A stretch of 64,000 bases of DNA from Rhodothermaceae bacterium. Lineage in GTDB: Bacteria > Bacteroidota > Rhodothermia > Rhodothermales > Bin80. This document shows, piece after piece, positions 5,246 to 53,943 of this stretch (positions are counted from its first letter, which is position 1; each line of letters begins with the position of its first letter). The notes under the pieces are model-generated. The model was not told the DNA's origin. It searched no databases and worked only from the letters and a program-made list of their open reading frames with translations. The DNA lies in NCBI GenBank assembly GCA_009838195.1, contig VXSC01000008.1, positions 76,288-140,287 on the forward strand, given 5' to 3'. The position numbers and the translations under genes are program-made.

Positions 5246-7352
5246 TTTTGCATCCATCCCCTTCCAGCGATCCAAGACCTCTTCTGGGATTGAGCCTGAG
5301 ACCAGCGAAAAAAGCCTCCAGTATGGCGCCGCCGACATGGAAGCATTTGAGCATCTGGATTATGCTGCAGGCATCCCCCCCTTCCTGCGCGGCCCCTATG
5401 CATCCATGTACACGATGCGCCCATGGACGATCCGGCAATATGCCGGATTTTCCACGGCAGAAGAATCCAACACTTTTTACAAAAATGCGCTCGCGGCAGG
5501 CCAACGCGGGCTCTCGGTCGCCTTTGATCTCCCGACACACAGAGGATATGACTCCGACCATGCATTCGTCCATGGTGATGTTGGACAGGCGGGAGTTGCA
5601 ATTGACAGTGTTGAGGACATGCGGATCCTGTTTGCAGATATTCCGCTTGAAAATATGAGCGTGTCCATGACCATGAACGGTGCGGTGTTGCCCATCATGG
5701 CATTTTTCATCGTAGCGGCAGAGGAATTCGGGGTGCAACCCAACCAGCTTAGCGGTACGATTCAGAACGACATTCTGAAAGAATTCATGGTGCGCAACAC
5801 CTATATCTACCCGCCCGCACCTTCCATGCGTATTGCAGGGGACATTATTGAATGGTGTGCCCATAAGATGCCCCGCTTCAATCCCGTATCTGTCAGCGGG
5901 TACCACATGCACGAAGCCGGAGCGCCAGCTGACCTGGAGCTTGCCTACACACTTGCCAACGGACTCGAATACGTACGCACCGGTCTTGATCGCGGCCTGG
6001 AGATTGATTCCTTCGCACCGAGACTCTCCTTTTTCTTCGGGATTGGCATGGATCATTTTACGGAGATTGCCAAGCTCCGGGCCGCCCGTTTGCTCTGGGC
6101 TAGACTCATGCAGTCATTTGCTCCCCGGAACCCGAGGTCCATGGCCCTGCGCATGCATTGCCAGACCTCAGGCTACAGCCTTACTGCACAGGATCCCCAC
6201 AATAATGTAGCTCGTACGACCCTTGAGGCACTCTCTGCCGTTTGCGGCCAAACCCAATCGCTACACACGAATGCACTGGATGAAGCACTTGCACTTCCTT
6301 CAACACACGCGGCCAGAGTTGCCCGCAATACGCAGCTGATTCTGCGGGAGGAATCGAGGCTGACCCGCACGATTGACCTCTGGGGAGGCTCCTACCTGGT
6401 TGAGCATCTAACTCATGCATTAACGCATCAGGCCTGGAAGCATATTCGAGAAATTGAGTCAATGGGAGGCATGACGAAGGCCATTGCGACCGGCTTTCCT
6501 AAGATGAGGATCGAGGAAGCCGCGGCCGCCAAACAGGCACACATTGATCGGGGGGACGAAATCATTGTCGGCGTGAATGCCTTCCAATCCGGGGCAAATA
6601 CCGAGATCCCGCTACTTCGAGTCGACAATGCGGAAGTTCTCGCCAATCAGTCCCGCCGATTAGAAGAACTGAAGAAATCCAGGGATATGACAAAGGTACG
6701 TGCGTCTCTGGAAAACCTACACGCTGCCGCATCCCAAAAGAACTTAAATTTACTGGACGCCGCAGTAGAGGCAGCGCGGGATCGTGCGACGCTGGGAGAG
6801 ATCTCCAGTGCCCTCGAAACCGTATTTGGCCGTTACACTGCCCACAACGAAACCGTTACCGGTATTTACTCTGCCGTTATGGAAACCGATCAAGCTACTG
6901 ATCGCGCCCGCTTCCTTGCAGATCAGTTTGCAGACCGCTCAGGACGCCGACCGCGGATCTTGGTCGCAAAGCTTGGCCTGGACGGGCACGACCGTGGGGC
7001 ACGGGCGATTGCCACGGCATTTGCCGACCTGGGATTTGACGTTGATGTGGGACCGCTCTTTCAATCCCCTGAAGAAGTGGCTCGCCAAGCGATTGAGAAC
7101 GATGTCCATATTACGGGAATTTCCAGTCTTGCTGGCGCTCATAGAACGCTTGTACCTGAGTTCATGAAGATTTTGGAGCAGCATCACCGGGCCGACATTG
7201 AAGTCGTTGTCGGAGGAATCATTCCAGCCGAGGACTACCCCTTACTTCACCAATCGGGGGTCCGTGAAATTTTCGGCCCTGGAACCGTCATCGCAGAGGC
7301 AGCAATTACGATTCTGCACCGTTTACTGGATGATCATGCTCCGAAATCCTGA
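5235..7352 (+). CDS. mutB: Methylmalonyl-CoA mutase large subunit
   Basis: Catalytic, adenosylcobalamin-dependent subunit of methylmalonyl-CoA mutase. From the ATG at 5235 it is 705 residues, the normal length. The N-terminal barrel carries the substrate motif [18 protein letters not shown] and [14 protein letters not shown]. The C-terminal cobalamin domain begins near residue 570 with GLDGHDRGA (the DxHxxG base-off histidine motif, about residues 582-587) and ends with GGIIP and the GTVIAEAA helix. The open frame extends further upstream inside mutA, but that part is not homologous. It overlaps both mutA (11 nt) and meaB (17 nt), so the three genes form one translationally coupled unit. Confidence 0.96.
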
Positions 7353-48086: not shown

Positions 48087-50717
48087 TCACCCTGCTACTG
48101 CTTCGACTTCTGCTGGATCATAGTTCAAAATCGGCCCTAACCAGCGCTCCACCTCACGCACCTGCATCCCTTTGCGGCGAGCATAGTCCTCAACCTGATC
48201 CCGATCAATCCGGCCAACGGCGAAATAAGTGCTTTCTGGATGCGCAATGTACAATCCAGAAACAGAGGCAGCGGGGATCATTGCACAGCTAGTGGTCAAT
48301 TCCATCCCAATGCGATTCGCGTCAAGCAAGCGAAAAATCGTCTCCTTCTCCGTATGGTCGGGCTGGCAGGGATAACCCGGCGCCGGTCGAATACCAGAGT
48401 AAGCCTCTTTGATTAAGGCTTCATTGTCATAGTTTTCATCCGCCGCATATCCCCAAAGCTCCTTCCGGACACGCTCATGCATATACTCCGCCAGAGCTTC
48501 TGCAAATCGATCAGCAAGGGACTTGATCATGATCGCTGAATAGTCATCGGAATCGGCCTCAAACATTTTGGCAATCTGCTCCGCCTCGGTTCCGGAAGTG
48601 ACCGCGAAGGCCCCAACATGATCACCCACCTCTGCAATGAAGTCAGACAGAGCAAAATTGGCTCGGCCATTGTCTTTTATCATTTGCTGACGAAGTGTAA
48701 AGAACGTTTCGCCAGTATTGAGCTTGATATCGTCACCGTCCCGGGAAGCCTCCCAAAAACCAACAACAGCTTTCGGCTTGAACCAACCCTGATCCATGAT
48801 TTGTTGCAGCATCACCTGGGTATCGCGCCAAAGGTCACGCGCCGCTTTACCTTTCGTCTCGTGTTCCAGGATTTTTGGATATCGTCCAGCTAGGTTCCAG
48901 GTTACGAAATATGGGGTCCAGTCAATGTAGCGAGCGAGCTGTGACAGATCAAAGTCCTCAAAAACTTTGGTGCCTTTATAACTCGGGACTTGAGGAGCCG
49001 GAGTCTGCAGCTTGTGCGCGTGGCTACGTGCTACTTGAATCGAATAGCGTGGCTTTGGTGGACCACCCACTCGGCGGTCACGCATTCGCTGATACTTGGC
49101 CTTTATGGTCTCAACAAAAAGTGGGCGCTCATCATCGGAGAACAATGAGGAGACAGTCCCAATCGCACGGCTTGCATCGGTAACGTGAATAGATGGGCCA
49201 TTGCTGCGGGCCGGGTCGATTTTCACGGCTGTATGCACTGGAGAGGTAGTTGCCCCTCCGATCAACAGAGGCTGTTTCATGCCAAGACGCTGCATTTCGC
49301 CTGCTACATAGACCATTTCGTCCAGACTTGGTGTGATGAGTCCAGAGAGACCAATAATATCAACCTGTTCTTCTTTGGCTTTGTTGAGAATATTCTCACA
49401 CGGCACCATAACGCCCATATCAACAACCTCATAGCCGTTGCACGCAAGCACTACACCGACAATATTCTTCCCGATATCGTGTACATCACCTTTGACGGTG
49501 GCCATCAGGATTTTGCCATTCGAAGCGTCAACGACTCCTAGCTTTTCTTTATCGGCCTGCATGAACGGGTCGAGATAAGCTACAGCCGCTTTCATGACAC
49601 GGGCAGACTTCACAACTTGCGGCAAGAACATTCTACCGGACCCAAACAGGTCACCCACCACGTTCATGCCATCCATGAGCGGGCCTTCAATAACATGCAA
49701 CGGGCGGTCCGCCTCAGCTCTGGCCTCCTCCGTATCCTCGACAATAAATTCGGTGATTCCATTTACAAGTGCATATTCAAGCCGCTTCTCCACAGGGAGT
49801 TTGCGCCAAGACATATCTTTTTGTACCGACTTTCCTTTTTGACCACGGAACTGCTCGGCGTAATCAACGAGCGCCTCTGTCGCGCCCTCATTACGGTTGA
49901 GGATCACATCTTCGACCAGTTCTCGCAGTGTCGGTTCAATCTCGTCATAGATATCCAGTTGACCAGCATTCACAATTCCCATGTTCATCCCGGCAGGGAT
50001 CGCGTGATACAAAAAGACGGAATGCATCGCCCGACGCACTGGCTCATTGCCACGGAAACTGAAGGATACATTCGAGAGCCCACCCGAGATATGACAGCCA
50101 AGGCATGTCCTACGGATGACCCGTGCTGCCTCAATAAAATCAACTGCATAATTATTGTGTTCTGGAATTCCCGTGGCAACGGCAAAAATGTTTGGGTCAA
50201 AAATTATGTCTTCGGCGGGGAAACCAACTTCTTCGGTAAGAATCTTGAATGCCCGCTGACAAATCTCAATCTTGCGTGATGCAGTGTCCGCCTGACCCAC
50301 CTCATCAAACGCCATCACGATGACTGCTGCGCCGTAAGACAGACATGCATGTGCTCGCTCTCGAAACTGATCCTCTCCTTCCTTCAGTGAGATTGAATTG
50401 ACCACGGCCTTGCCTTGGACACATTTGAGACCTGCCTCGATCACTTCCCACTTTGAGCTGTCAATCATGATTGGCACCCGGGCAATGTCGGGCTCGGCGG
50501 CAATCAGGTTGAGGAAGGTTTGCATGGCTTTGACACCATCAAGCATCCCCTCATCCATATTTACATCAATGATCTGTGCACCGCTTTCGACCTGCTGTCG
50601 TGCAACTTCTACGGCGGTCGCATAATCGCCACTCACGATCAGTCTCCGGAACTTGGCGGAACCGGTCACATTGGTCCGCTCACCAATGTTTACAAATGTC
50701 TGGGCAGCTGTACTCAT
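48087..50717 (-). CDS. metH: Cobalamin-dependent methionine synthase, pterin/B12/activation part
   Basis: An 876-residue protein covering the last three modules of MetH. The methyl-THF-binding barrel is residues about 1-290 ([13 protein letters not shown] at the start). The B12 cap and cobalamin domain are about 300-530, with the DVHDIGKN base-off motif near residue 410 and [11 protein letters not shown]. The SAM-dependent reactivation domain is about 590-876 ([31 protein letters not shown]). The homocysteine domain is missing and is encoded by the next gene upstream. Third gene of the met operon. Confidence 0.94.
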
Positions 50718-50811
50718 TCCCTATCCGGGCCTTTGTTTGGCCAGAAGCCCTTGAGGTTATGATTATCAGGATTGGTCACCCTATTGGCCATAGATCCCCT
50801 TCTCCCTCAGT

Positions 50812-51888
50812 TTAATTCGCCAATTCAAAAGATTCCAAGCCCGCAAGTCGTAACGTATCCCTACTTCCGACTGGAATTCGTGGCTGCAAACCCTCTATTG
50901 CCTCCGCGATTGCACAAATATGCTCTGGAGTAGTGCCACAACATCCCCCGAGGATATTCACGATGCCATCCTGAGCCCATTTACCGACTTCGTCTGCGGT
51001 CTCCTGTGGTGACTCCTCATACTGTCCCATCTCGTTGGGCAGCCCAGCATTCGGATACGCGGCAACCCAGGTATCTGCAACACGGGACATAGCGGCAATA
51101 TGCGGACGCATTAGATCGGCACCAAGTGCACAATTGAACCCCACCGCAAATGGTTTTACGTGGCGTATCGAATGCCAAAATGCTTCAACTGTTTGACCTG
51201 ACAGGGTGCGCCCCGACCGGTCTGTAATAGTCCCGGAAATCCAAACCGGTAGCTTTTCAAGGCCTTCTGCCTCGAGATCAACGATCGCTTTGATTGCTGC
51301 CTTGCAGTTTAGTGTATCGGTGACCGTCTCGATCAAATAGAGATGTACTCCGCCTCTATTCAGAGCTTCGATTTGCTCACGATACGCTTGGTAGACCTGG
51401 TCAAATGTTACTTCCCGTGCGCCAGGATCATTGACATCTGCGCTCATGGAGAGCATCTTGTTCAGCGGCCCAATGGAGCCTGCGACGAAGCGTGGCTTCT
51501 GCGGCTCTTTTTTTGTCCACTTATCTGCCGATGCGCGGGCAAGTTTTGCACCTTGGTAATTGATATCAACGACTGACCGGAGATCAAGTGCGTAATCATC
51601 CTGTACGATCGTTGTCGCGGAGAAGGTATTCGTCTCTGAGATATCCGCCCCGGCCGCAAAATAGGCGTCATGCAATTCTGTCACATACTCTGGTCGTGTT
51701 AAGCATAGAATATCATTATTGCCCTTCATATGAACCGGGTATTCTTCCTCAGAGAACCGTGCCCCGCGATAATCCTCTTCTTCAAGCCCCATTCTTTGAA
51801 ACATCGCACCCCAACAACCATCAAGTAGCAATATGCGCTGCTTGACAGCTAAGTAGAGCTGATCAATACGGCCTTGGCGATTGGTCAT
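50812..51888 (-). CDS. Homocysteine S-methyltransferase (N-terminal module of split MetH)
   Basis: A 358-residue homocysteine-binding barrel. The opening RILLLDGCWGAMFQRMGLEEEDYRG and the zinc ligands (Cys in VGFNCALG, about residue 252, and the Cys pair in GGCCGTTPEH, about 312) match the first domain of MetH. It lies 94 nt before the remainder of MetH; together they make one complete enzyme in two chains. A TTG one codon upstream is an alternative start. Confidence 0.92.
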   Translation of the reverse strand: MTNRQGRIDQLYLAVKQRILLLDGCWGAMFQRMGLEEEDYRGARFSEEEYPVHMKGNNDILCLTRPEYVTELHDAYFAAGADISETNTFSATTIVQDDYALDLRSVVDINYQGAKLARASADKWTKKEPQKPRFVAGSIGPLNKMLSMSADVNDPGAREVTFDQVYQAYREQIEALNRGGVHLYLIETVTDTLNCKAAIKAIVDLEAEGLEKLPVWISGTITDRSGRTLSGQTVEAFWHSIRHVKPFAVGFNCALGADLMRPHIAAMSRVADTWVAAYPNAGLPNEMGQYEESPQETADEVGKWAQDGIVNILGGCCGTTPEHICAIAEAIEGLQPRIPVGSRDTLRLAGLESFELAN

Positions 51889-51970
51889 CAAACTTCGGCG
51901 ACGGTTACATAAATGAGCATAGCGAAGCCTGTATCTATCCCTCGACTACGGCGCGAACGAATCCTGAAGA

Positions 51971-51988
51971 GCACTGCCGGAGCAGTGC
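51971..51988 (-). promoter_or_regulatory. Small hairpin between metF fusion and split metH
   Basis: Perfect 7-bp arms (GCACTGC/GCAGTGC) with a CGGA loop in the 141-nt gap. No T-run follows on the minus strand, so it is unlikely to be a terminator; it may stabilise or process the operon mRNA. Confidence 0.35.
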
Positions 51989-52029
51989 ATTGACAATCCG
52001 GTAATGAACAAGAACTTTCCATGGTCCTA

Positions 52030-53910
52030 TTACACCACCGCCTGCGGCTTCAATCCAAGTAATCGACAGGTAGACAGTGCCAAGCTCGCGCGATTAAGCG
52101 TATAGAAATGAAACTCATTCACGCCTTGCTCTGATAGCTTGTGGCAGAGTTCGGCGGCTACATTCGCCGTGATGAATTCACACGTCACCGTATCTTCATC
52201 AGTCCCCTCGTAAAGCTCATGCAGCCAGTCTGGTAAATTGACCTGGCAGAGATCTGCAATACGTTTCATGCCTTTGAAGTTCGGTTGCAGCATGATCCCG
52301 GGTACAATCGGCATGGTAACCCCACCTGCCCGTGCACGGTCAAGAAAGGCAAAGTAGACCGCCGGCTCAAAGAAAAATTGTGTAATCGCGCGGTCAGCAC
52401 CAGCATCCTGTTTGGCTCTTAAAAATGCGATATCCCGGTCCCAGCCTCGACTATGCGGATGTTGCTCTGGATAGCAGGAAACGCTGATTTCAAATCTGGC
52501 ATCAGGCACAGCGTCATGTGCTCGAATCCCCTCAATCAATTCGATGCTATTGCGAAAACCACCTGGATGTTGCTCAAATTTTTCGCCGATGCCTTCGGGA
52601 GGATCGCCTCGCAGTGCCACCAGGTGACGTATGCCCGCTCGCCATAAATCGACTGCGACCTGTAAAACTTCTTCCTTGGTTGCGCTCACACAGGTCAGAT
52701 GCGCGGCCGGCAAGAGCGGAGTGTCCTGTGCAATTTTGGTGACAATCCTTTGCGTTCGATTTCGTGTAGTGCCACCAGCTCCGTAGGTTACAGACACAAA
52801 ACGCGGTGCCATTGGTGTCAGGCGTGCAACCGATTCCCAGAGCTTGGCCTCCATCTTGTCCGTTTTCGGTGGAAAGAACTCGAATGAGACGTTGGGAGCT
52901 GGTTTCGATTGCTGCTCCGCAGCGGCGAGTTGATTCACGCTGTAGCCTCCTGGTGGACTGGCATGCCAAGTCGCCGTCCAAATGAGAACGCTGATGCCCT
53001 GATCAAGTGAGGCGGGTGGGTCAAATTTCTTCACCTGTACGGAAAACCCGGCTGCTTCCGCCCATTGCAGCATATCGTCTTCGGAAATTCCAAGCCGATA
53101 GTGTCCCTGGGATTCACGTAAAAACTCGAGTTCATGCGGGGCAAAATCAACGACAAGAAGTTGCCCTCCCGGTTTGAGAATGCGTGCAGCCTCTGTGATT
53201 ACATCCTCGGGTTTTTCGAGATAATGCAACACTTGATGCACGATAACAAAATCAGCACTATCGCTCTCGAAAGGGGTATGCGTGGCATCACCCTGACGAA
53301 CGCGTGCGTTGCCTATCCCTGCTCGGCTGAGGTTTGCCCGTGCAACAGTTAGCATCTGATGGGCGAGATCAAGGCCTTCGGCCTCCTGTGTGTACGGGGA
53401 CAGCAAAATCAGCATCCGCCCGGTACCGGTCCCAAGATCAATGACGCGCTCAAAGTGGTATGTCCCAATATGATCAAGGATGGCCTGCTCAATTGCTGCA
53501 TCGGGATAATGCAGAGCCCGCAACCGGTCCCAGTCTTCGGCGATTTCTGAAAAGTAGGTCGCGGCTGATTTTGCACGAACTTTGCGAACCCGCTGCAGGG
53601 CTTTAAGGTCAGACGTAAATGGATCACTATCGGTCTCTAATTCAGCAAAGAGTCCCTGCAGTAGCCTTCCGGCCCAACCTTTATTTTGGATTCGATAGAA
53701 TACCCAAGATCCCTCAGGCAGCCGTTCGACCAAGCCCGCCCGTGCCAATGTCTTTAGATGATGTGAGAGACGTGGTTGACTTTGATTGAGAATTTGTGCC
53801 AGTTCACCAACAGCAAGGTCGCCACAGCGCAGCAGCACAAGAATGCGTAGCCGGTTCGGCTCGCCAGCCGCCTTCATAGCACCAATAAGCAGCCTCTGAC
53901 ACACGTCCAT
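52030..53910 (-). CDS. metF: ArsR regulator - SAM methyltransferase - MetF fusion protein
   Basis: One uninterrupted 626-codon frame. Residues 1-90 form an ArsR-type winged helix (GEPNRLRILVLL, VGELAQILNQSQPRLSHHLKTLARAGLVE) without the metal-binding ELCVC cysteines. Residues about 110-312 are a class I methyltransferase (VIDLGTGTGRM, ADFVIVHQVLHYLEKP, ILKPGGQLLVVDF). Residues 340-626 are a complete methylenetetrahydrofolate reductase (NVSFEFFPPKT, RFVSVTYGAGGTTRNRT, HLVALRGDPP, ITQFFFE, HFYTLNRA). MetF makes the methyl-THF used by MetH, encoded just downstream. In Alphaproteobacteria similar ArsR-methyltransferase and metF genes are separate neighbours. Start ATG 53910. Confidence 0.93.
   Translation of the reverse strand: MDVCQRLLIGAMKAAGEPNRLRILVLLRCGDLAVGELAQILNQSQPRLSHHLKTLARAGLVERLPEGSWVFYRIQNKGWAGRLLQGLFAELETDSDPFTSDLKALQRVRKVRAKSAATYFSEIAEDWDRLRALHYPDAAIEQAILDHIGTYHFERVIDLGTGTGRMLILLSPYTQEAEGLDLAHQMLTVARANLSRAGIGNARVRQGDATHTPFESDSADFVIVHQVLHYLEKPEDVITEAARILKPGGQLLVVDFAPHELEFLRESQGHYRLGISEDDMLQWAEAAGFSVQVKKFDPPASLDQGISVLIWTATWHASPPGGYSVNQLAAAEQQSKPAPNVSFEFFPPKTDKMEAKLWESVARLTPMAPRFVSVTYGAGGTTRNRTQRIVTKIAQDTPLLPAAHLTCVSATKEEVLQVAVDLWRAGIRHLVALRGDPPEGIGEKFEQHPGGFRNSIELIEGIRAHDAVPDARFEISVSCYPEQHPHSRGWDRDIAFLRAKQDAGADRAITQFFFEPAVYFAFLDRARAGGVTMPIVPGIMLQPNFKGMKRIADLCQVNLPDWLHELYEGTDEDTVTCEFITANVAAELCHKLSEQGVNEFHFYTLNRASLALSTCRLLGLKPQAVV
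52936..52951 (-). promoter_or_regulatory. Internal Shine-Dalgarno and GTG start for free MetF
   Basis: AGGAGG (plus-strand 52946-52951) lies 7 nt before an in-frame GTG (52938-52936, codon 325 of the fusion). Starting there gives a 302-residue protein beginning NQLAAAEQQSKPAPN and covering all of MetF, close to the usual MetF length of about 300. It falls exactly in the linker between methyltransferase and MetF domains. Confidence 0.55.
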
Positions 53911-53920
53911 CAGAACTCAT

Positions 53921-53943
53921 TATAAATATTTGTTTATATAAAC
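53921..53943. promoter_or_regulatory. Candidate operator/promoter of the met operon
   Basis: TATAAATATTTGTTTATA (53921-53938) is an 18-bp imperfect palindrome (7 of 9 pairs), overlapping the perfect 12-bp palindrome GTTTATATAAAC (53932-53943). It begins 11 nt before the fusion gene ATG and, on the minus strand, contains TATAAT as a possible -10 box. AT-rich palindromes of this kind are typical ArsR-family operators, so autoregulation by the fusion's own DNA-binding domain is plausible. Confidence 0.5.

Follow-up and report, generated by a model that had tools for sequence, protein, structure and literature searches.

The window analysed here, a 64,000-nucleotide stretch of a Rhodothermaceae bacterium (contig VXSC01000008.1), carries a gene in which an alphaproteobacterial SahR-type regulator is joined to MetF (methylenetetrahydrofolate reductase, MTHFR). 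The sequence AGGAGG-N7-GTG in the linker between the two is most probably the fossil translation start of a formerly separate metF gene, and this internal start is probably no longer used. Compared with its relatives, the gene provides a base-by-base record of a gene fusion after an apparent inter-phylum transfer, from the donor state through a one-base fusion to the decay of the start across ten species, and the resulting chimera of regulator and enzyme is the only MetF of the genus.

The fused gene and its linker

The fused gene and the elements of its internal start site are the following:
52030-53910, minus strand: fused gene encoding an ArsR HTH, a SAM methyltransferase domain (SahR-type) and MetF, 626 aa; a single uninterrupted ORF in all 10 genomes of the genus
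52966-53910, minus strand: SahR-type part, residues 1-315, from Pfam matches
52894-52965, minus strand: linker, residues 316-339, holding the internal start; poorly conserved within the genus
52033-52893, minus strand: MetF part, residues 340-626, from PF02219 and TIGR00676
52946-52951, minus strand: AGGAGG, probable relic Shine-Dalgarno (SD) sequence of the formerly separate metF, from comparison with unfused metF starts
52936-52938, minus strand: GTG where the ancestral metF had its ATG (ATGA overlap)

The SahR-type part comprises an ArsR HTH at residues 18-62, recognized as an ArsR-type DNA-binding domain by PF01022 (52.8 bits, cut-off 22) and NF033788 (79.2 bits, cut-off 55), and a methyltransferase domain at residues ~154-291 (PF08241, 81.7 bits). 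The MetF part exceeds both curated cut-offs of its family (PF02219, 284.7 bits against 24; TIGR00676, 305.2 against 293.7) and aligns over its full length with solved bacterial MTHFRs; it differs from these in its N-terminal regulator and in belonging to a genome without a free copy. Its SFEFFPP, RGD and TQFFF segments align with those of the solved enzymes, indicating that the catalytic residues, which we take to be Glu, Asp and Gln, are kept. AlphaFold2 run on the ten-sequence alignment returned a poor model (mean pLDDT 57), with linker values mostly below 50. Among the papers listed by literature searches, none dealt with an ArsR/SahR-MetF fusion.

The nine congeners of the window genome carry fused genes 71-84% identical to that of the window, and in each of the ten genomes the fused gene is the sole MTHFR. 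In six other genomes of the family the fusion is absent and MetF is encoded separately, with an identity of 31-34%. Within the genus, the linker around the internal site is far more variable than both flanking domains.

On the minus strand the linker reads ...CCA CCA GGA GGC TAC AGC GTG AAT CAA CTC..., and the sequence confirms the initial annotation in placing AGGAGG exactly 7 nt (52939-52945) ahead of a GTG that shares the frame of the 626-aa ORF. Initiation at this GTG would give 302 residues up to the stop at 52030, and the accompanying claim of a normal MetF length also holds, the separate metF genes of the nearest relatives encoding 303-304 residues in eight of nine cases (the ninth, L047 on a short contig, encodes 261).

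Probable descent from separate sahR and metF genes

A contig scan with the SahR part and two peptide patterns yielded 78 loci, the set to which all counts of fused and unfused genes refer; besides the congeners, nearly all come from Hyphomonadaceae and other Alphaproteobacteria. Four were left out (three truncated, one without a SahR match), and the 74 that show both parts divide into 65 with separate genes and nine fused ones, which are the nine congeners. Among the 65 separate pairs, 57 have a metF start that overlaps the sahR stop as NTGA, in 54 cases in the metF frame, and AGGAGG precedes seven of these 57 overlaps, in every case with a spacing to the start of exactly 7 nt. The close unfused relative L038 (AGGAGGCTGCCGCATGAGCCAGCTCGCC) nearly matches the window (AGGAGGCTACAGCGTGAATCAACTCGCC) around the site, and other close unfused relatives carry weaker forms (AGGAAG, AAGAAG and similar). 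In one separate pair, that of Ponticaulis koreensis DSM 19734 (L076, ~5915-5980), the metF frame looks broken soon after the ATGA start; the near-identical L077 lacks this break, and L076 represents either a real disruption or an assembly error.

Between the last conserved SahR residue and the MetF domain lie 60 nt in the fused genes, against 59 nt in the nearest separate ones. Relative to L038, the extra base can be placed equally well anywhere from about -18 to -14 from the GTG, which is 1-5 nt upstream of AGGAGG, and the addition of one base takes sahR out of the frame of its old TGA and into that of metF. The fused genes are monophyletic within the unfused Hyphomonadaceae set in all four trees, which were computed with FastTree (SH-like support) from tblastn segments after removal of three of the 74 loci for insufficient length, the support for the fused clade being 1.0 for sahR and metF together, 0.996 for sahR, 0.992 for metF and 0.902 for the adjacent S-methyltransferase. 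The constant distance and the single clade point to a single event in the common ancestor of the fused genes, and by sequence comparison the whole sahR-metF/S-methyltransferase/metH cluster (48087-53939) seems to have come by transfer from Hyphomonadaceae-like bacteria, metH being included by adjacency only. The features concerned are:
52952-52956, minus strand: best-placed interval of the putative fusing one-base insertion, window against L038
50812-51891, minus strand: homocysteine S-methyltransferase (MetH N-terminal module), part of the apparently acquired cluster
48087-50717, minus strand: MetH remainder (pterin, B12 and activation domains), part of the apparently acquired cluster

We propose the following course of events. 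The comparison shows that in a Hyphomonadaceae-like donor sahR and metF lay next to each other and shared four bases (ATGA), with an SD sequence ahead of the overlap in some lineages. The ancestor of one Rhodothermales genus would have gained sahR, metF and the methyltransferase, as the trees of these three genes indicate, possibly along with the adjacent metH. A net insertion of one base 1-5 nt upstream of the SD sequence, evident from the constant distance of 60 against 59 nt, would then have put sahR in the frame of metF and produced the fusion, probably in one event. In a recipient with no visible use of SD sites, the old start signal would have lost its purpose and decayed, the ATG disappearing in ten species and AGGAGG being left in the window copy. 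The full-length protein would act both as SahR and as the sole MetF, as the presence of one MTHFR per genome suggests.

Present use of the internal start

AGGAGG is confined to the window copy among the ten fused genes and is missing from all nine congeners, one of which (L036) retains GGAG. At the position of the GTG the nine congeners have GTG, ATA, GTA, GTA, GTG, GGG, AAG, GTC and GAT (GTG in two of nine), and the ancestral ATG is present in none of the ten fused genes. The initial annotation had proposed that one mRNA yields both a fusion and a free MetF, or else that the site is a relic of a recently fused metF gene. The relic part is supported, the site having the homologous position and the 7-nt spacing of unfused metF starts, except that the fusion is common to the ten genomes of the genus and predates the window species; the two-product part is not supported, since the check named by the annotation itself, conservation of the site among relatives with the fusion, turns out against it (AGGAGG in none of nine, GTG in two) and the genome gives no sign of SD use.

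We therefore regard it as unlikely that the window species makes both the SahR-MetF fusion and a free 302-aa MetF, in spite of a perfect SD sequence at the donor spacing, a valid start codon and a predicted length nearly identical to that of separate MetF, because the nine congeners without AGGAGG have the fusion as their only MetF. Some genes yield two products through an internal in-frame start; the fused gene resembles these in that a longer gene encloses an SD sequence and a start codon sharing its frame, but conservation and SD use by the host, which are supportive there, are not found here. A literature search on internal initiation with retapamulin found nothing. The start-context score of the window GTG exceeds that of 99% of internal ATG/GTG codons and 70% of predicted starts (for the nine relatives it falls from the 11th to the 83rd percentile of internal codons), which speaks for a second product, but the score is confounded because coding sequence has a codon periodicity that the linker lacks. 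The predicted folding at the GTG (-7.2) argues in the opposite direction, being like that of internal codons (mean -7.1) and unlike that of starts (-4.4).

SD use in the genome likewise argues against a second product. With a simple gene caller that sets the start at the earliest ATG in the first 60 codons of the longest ORF, and whose start calls are approximate, no excess of SD-like tetramers at starts was found in ~0.69 Mb of the 3.0-Mb window genome plus the window (35 of 389 starts, 9.0%, against 253 of 2639 internal ATG, 9.6%); in 28 loci of Hyphomonadaceae and relatives this procedure gave 64 of 159 starts (40.3%) against 19 of 641 internal ATG (3.0%). Two more genomes, from the family and order of the window genome, give a similar picture, with 3 of 39 and 3 of 35 SD-like starts. 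The nine pooled loci of the genus are mildly higher (7 of 44 starts against 28 of 415 in the background), many of these genes being mutual homologues, and the SD profile of the window genome has a small bump at -10/-11. The anti-SD in the 16S rRNA tail is intact, which would favour a live internal start; in Bacteroidia, according to passages of two papers, the anti-SD is present yet sequestered by bS21, bS18 and bS6 (PMC9976891, PMC8710568). The word Rhodotherm... is absent from the main text of both papers, and a literature search combining Rhodothermales and Shine-Dalgarno found nothing relevant. The rpsU gene for bS21 in locus L172 (1477-1728, minus strand) has no ATG near its expected start, so that GTG, TTG or ATT is needed, and no strong SD sequence is visible ahead of it.

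Under the preferred reading as a relic, the survival of AGGAGG in the window copy has to be accounted for. Given the identity of 50 of 74 around the site, the six SD bases would all be kept with p ~0.095, so no selection is needed and slow decay suffices. Of 28 ancestral bases at fourfold sites that the unfused sister group conserves, the window retains 12, and by this yardstick the six-base retention is rarer (0.43^6, below 1%), which counts against the relic reading. A functional second start in the window species is possible, though not needed for the explanation.

A chance origin of AGGAGG and GTG in a variable linker, unrelated to any metF start, is less probable still. The motif AGGAGG-N7-GTG occurs once in the window and is by itself unsurprising, since at least one match appears in 39 of 100 shuffled windows (mean 0.52). 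AGGAGG located 5-9 nt before an in-frame NTG deep inside a gene was found at 18 sites, that of the fused gene included, among 413 predicted genes drawn from ~0.76 Mb of the window genome, a frequency that is compatible with coincidence and that also weighs against a second product. The internal site nevertheless exceeds chance because it is homologous to the site at which separate metF genes start, with which its position, hexamer, 7-nt spacing and flanks all agree, and this alignment with the donor start strongly disfavours coincidence. An artefact of assembly or sequencing, such as a missed frameshift, has a negligible probability: a single net base separates the fused from the unfused state, but ten genomes have the identical open frame and distance, which excludes this origin unless all of them share one error.

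Possible translation mismatch and regulation of the cluster

A tentative explanation for the fusion is adaptive repair, in which an SD-started donor metF, the second gene of the ATGA pair, would have been under-translated in an SD-indifferent host until the one-base insertion allowed its translation as a continuation of sahR; the window site might then be a fossil of the fusion step itself. Adaptive repair is compatible with everything seen, but SD-poor bacteria may translate ATGA-coupled genes efficiently by re-initiation. A literature search on SD, transfer, fusion, overlap and frameshift jointly found nothing. If adaptive repair is true, a change in the type of translation initiation may drive gene fusion after horizontal transfer, and the ten fused genes make it testable whether operons tend to fuse after transfer into a host with an incompatible translation-start system.

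Passages of two papers describe SahR as an SAH-responsive, autoregulated ArsR-family repressor of SAM-cycle genes in Proteobacteria, including Hyphomonadaceae (PMC4239095, PMC8877191). The regulator in the window resembles SahR as described in these passages in its ArsR HTH, in its neighbours metF, S-methyltransferase and metH and in its own upstream palindrome, and differs in its fusion to MetF and its presence in Rhodothermales; the passages on SahR do not discuss a methyltransferase domain, which is present in the fused gene and in the homologous loci (PMC4239095, PMC8877191). The palindrome is the following:
53921-53939, minus strand: putative SahR operator, palindrome ATATAAACAAATATTTATA, just upstream of the fused gene, with counterparts at fused and unfused homologues

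When the upstream regions of 10 fused and 11 separate genes were compared, a palindrome of the ATATAAA-N6-TTTATA type was found directly upstream of the separate sahR genes and in a less perfect form at the fused ones. Nowhere else in the genome does the pattern occur exactly as at 53921-53939; no wider SahR regulon was found there, the one other palindrome match having one mismatch and not rising above what the reversed control gives (2 hits). In the Rfam search of the window solely a tRNA reached the gathering score, and a known riboswitch was therefore rejected as the control of the cluster.

The conserved palindrome suggests that the fusion probably still represses its own promoter and cluster, which would lock the levels of regulator and enzyme one to one. 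A comparable arrangement is ArsRM, reportedly a bifunctional protein of an ArsR repressor and an arsenite methyltransferase; ArsRM is likewise a repressor fused to an enzyme of its own pathway but involves a different enzyme and pathway, and to our knowledge it has no relic start site. The clustering of SAM-cycle genes is maintained, as the metF part, the S-methyltransferase and metH follow one another in the window, an order shared by most related loci. The S-methyltransferase ORF opens with TTGATG (51886-51891), of which the ATG is a likelier start than the TTG.
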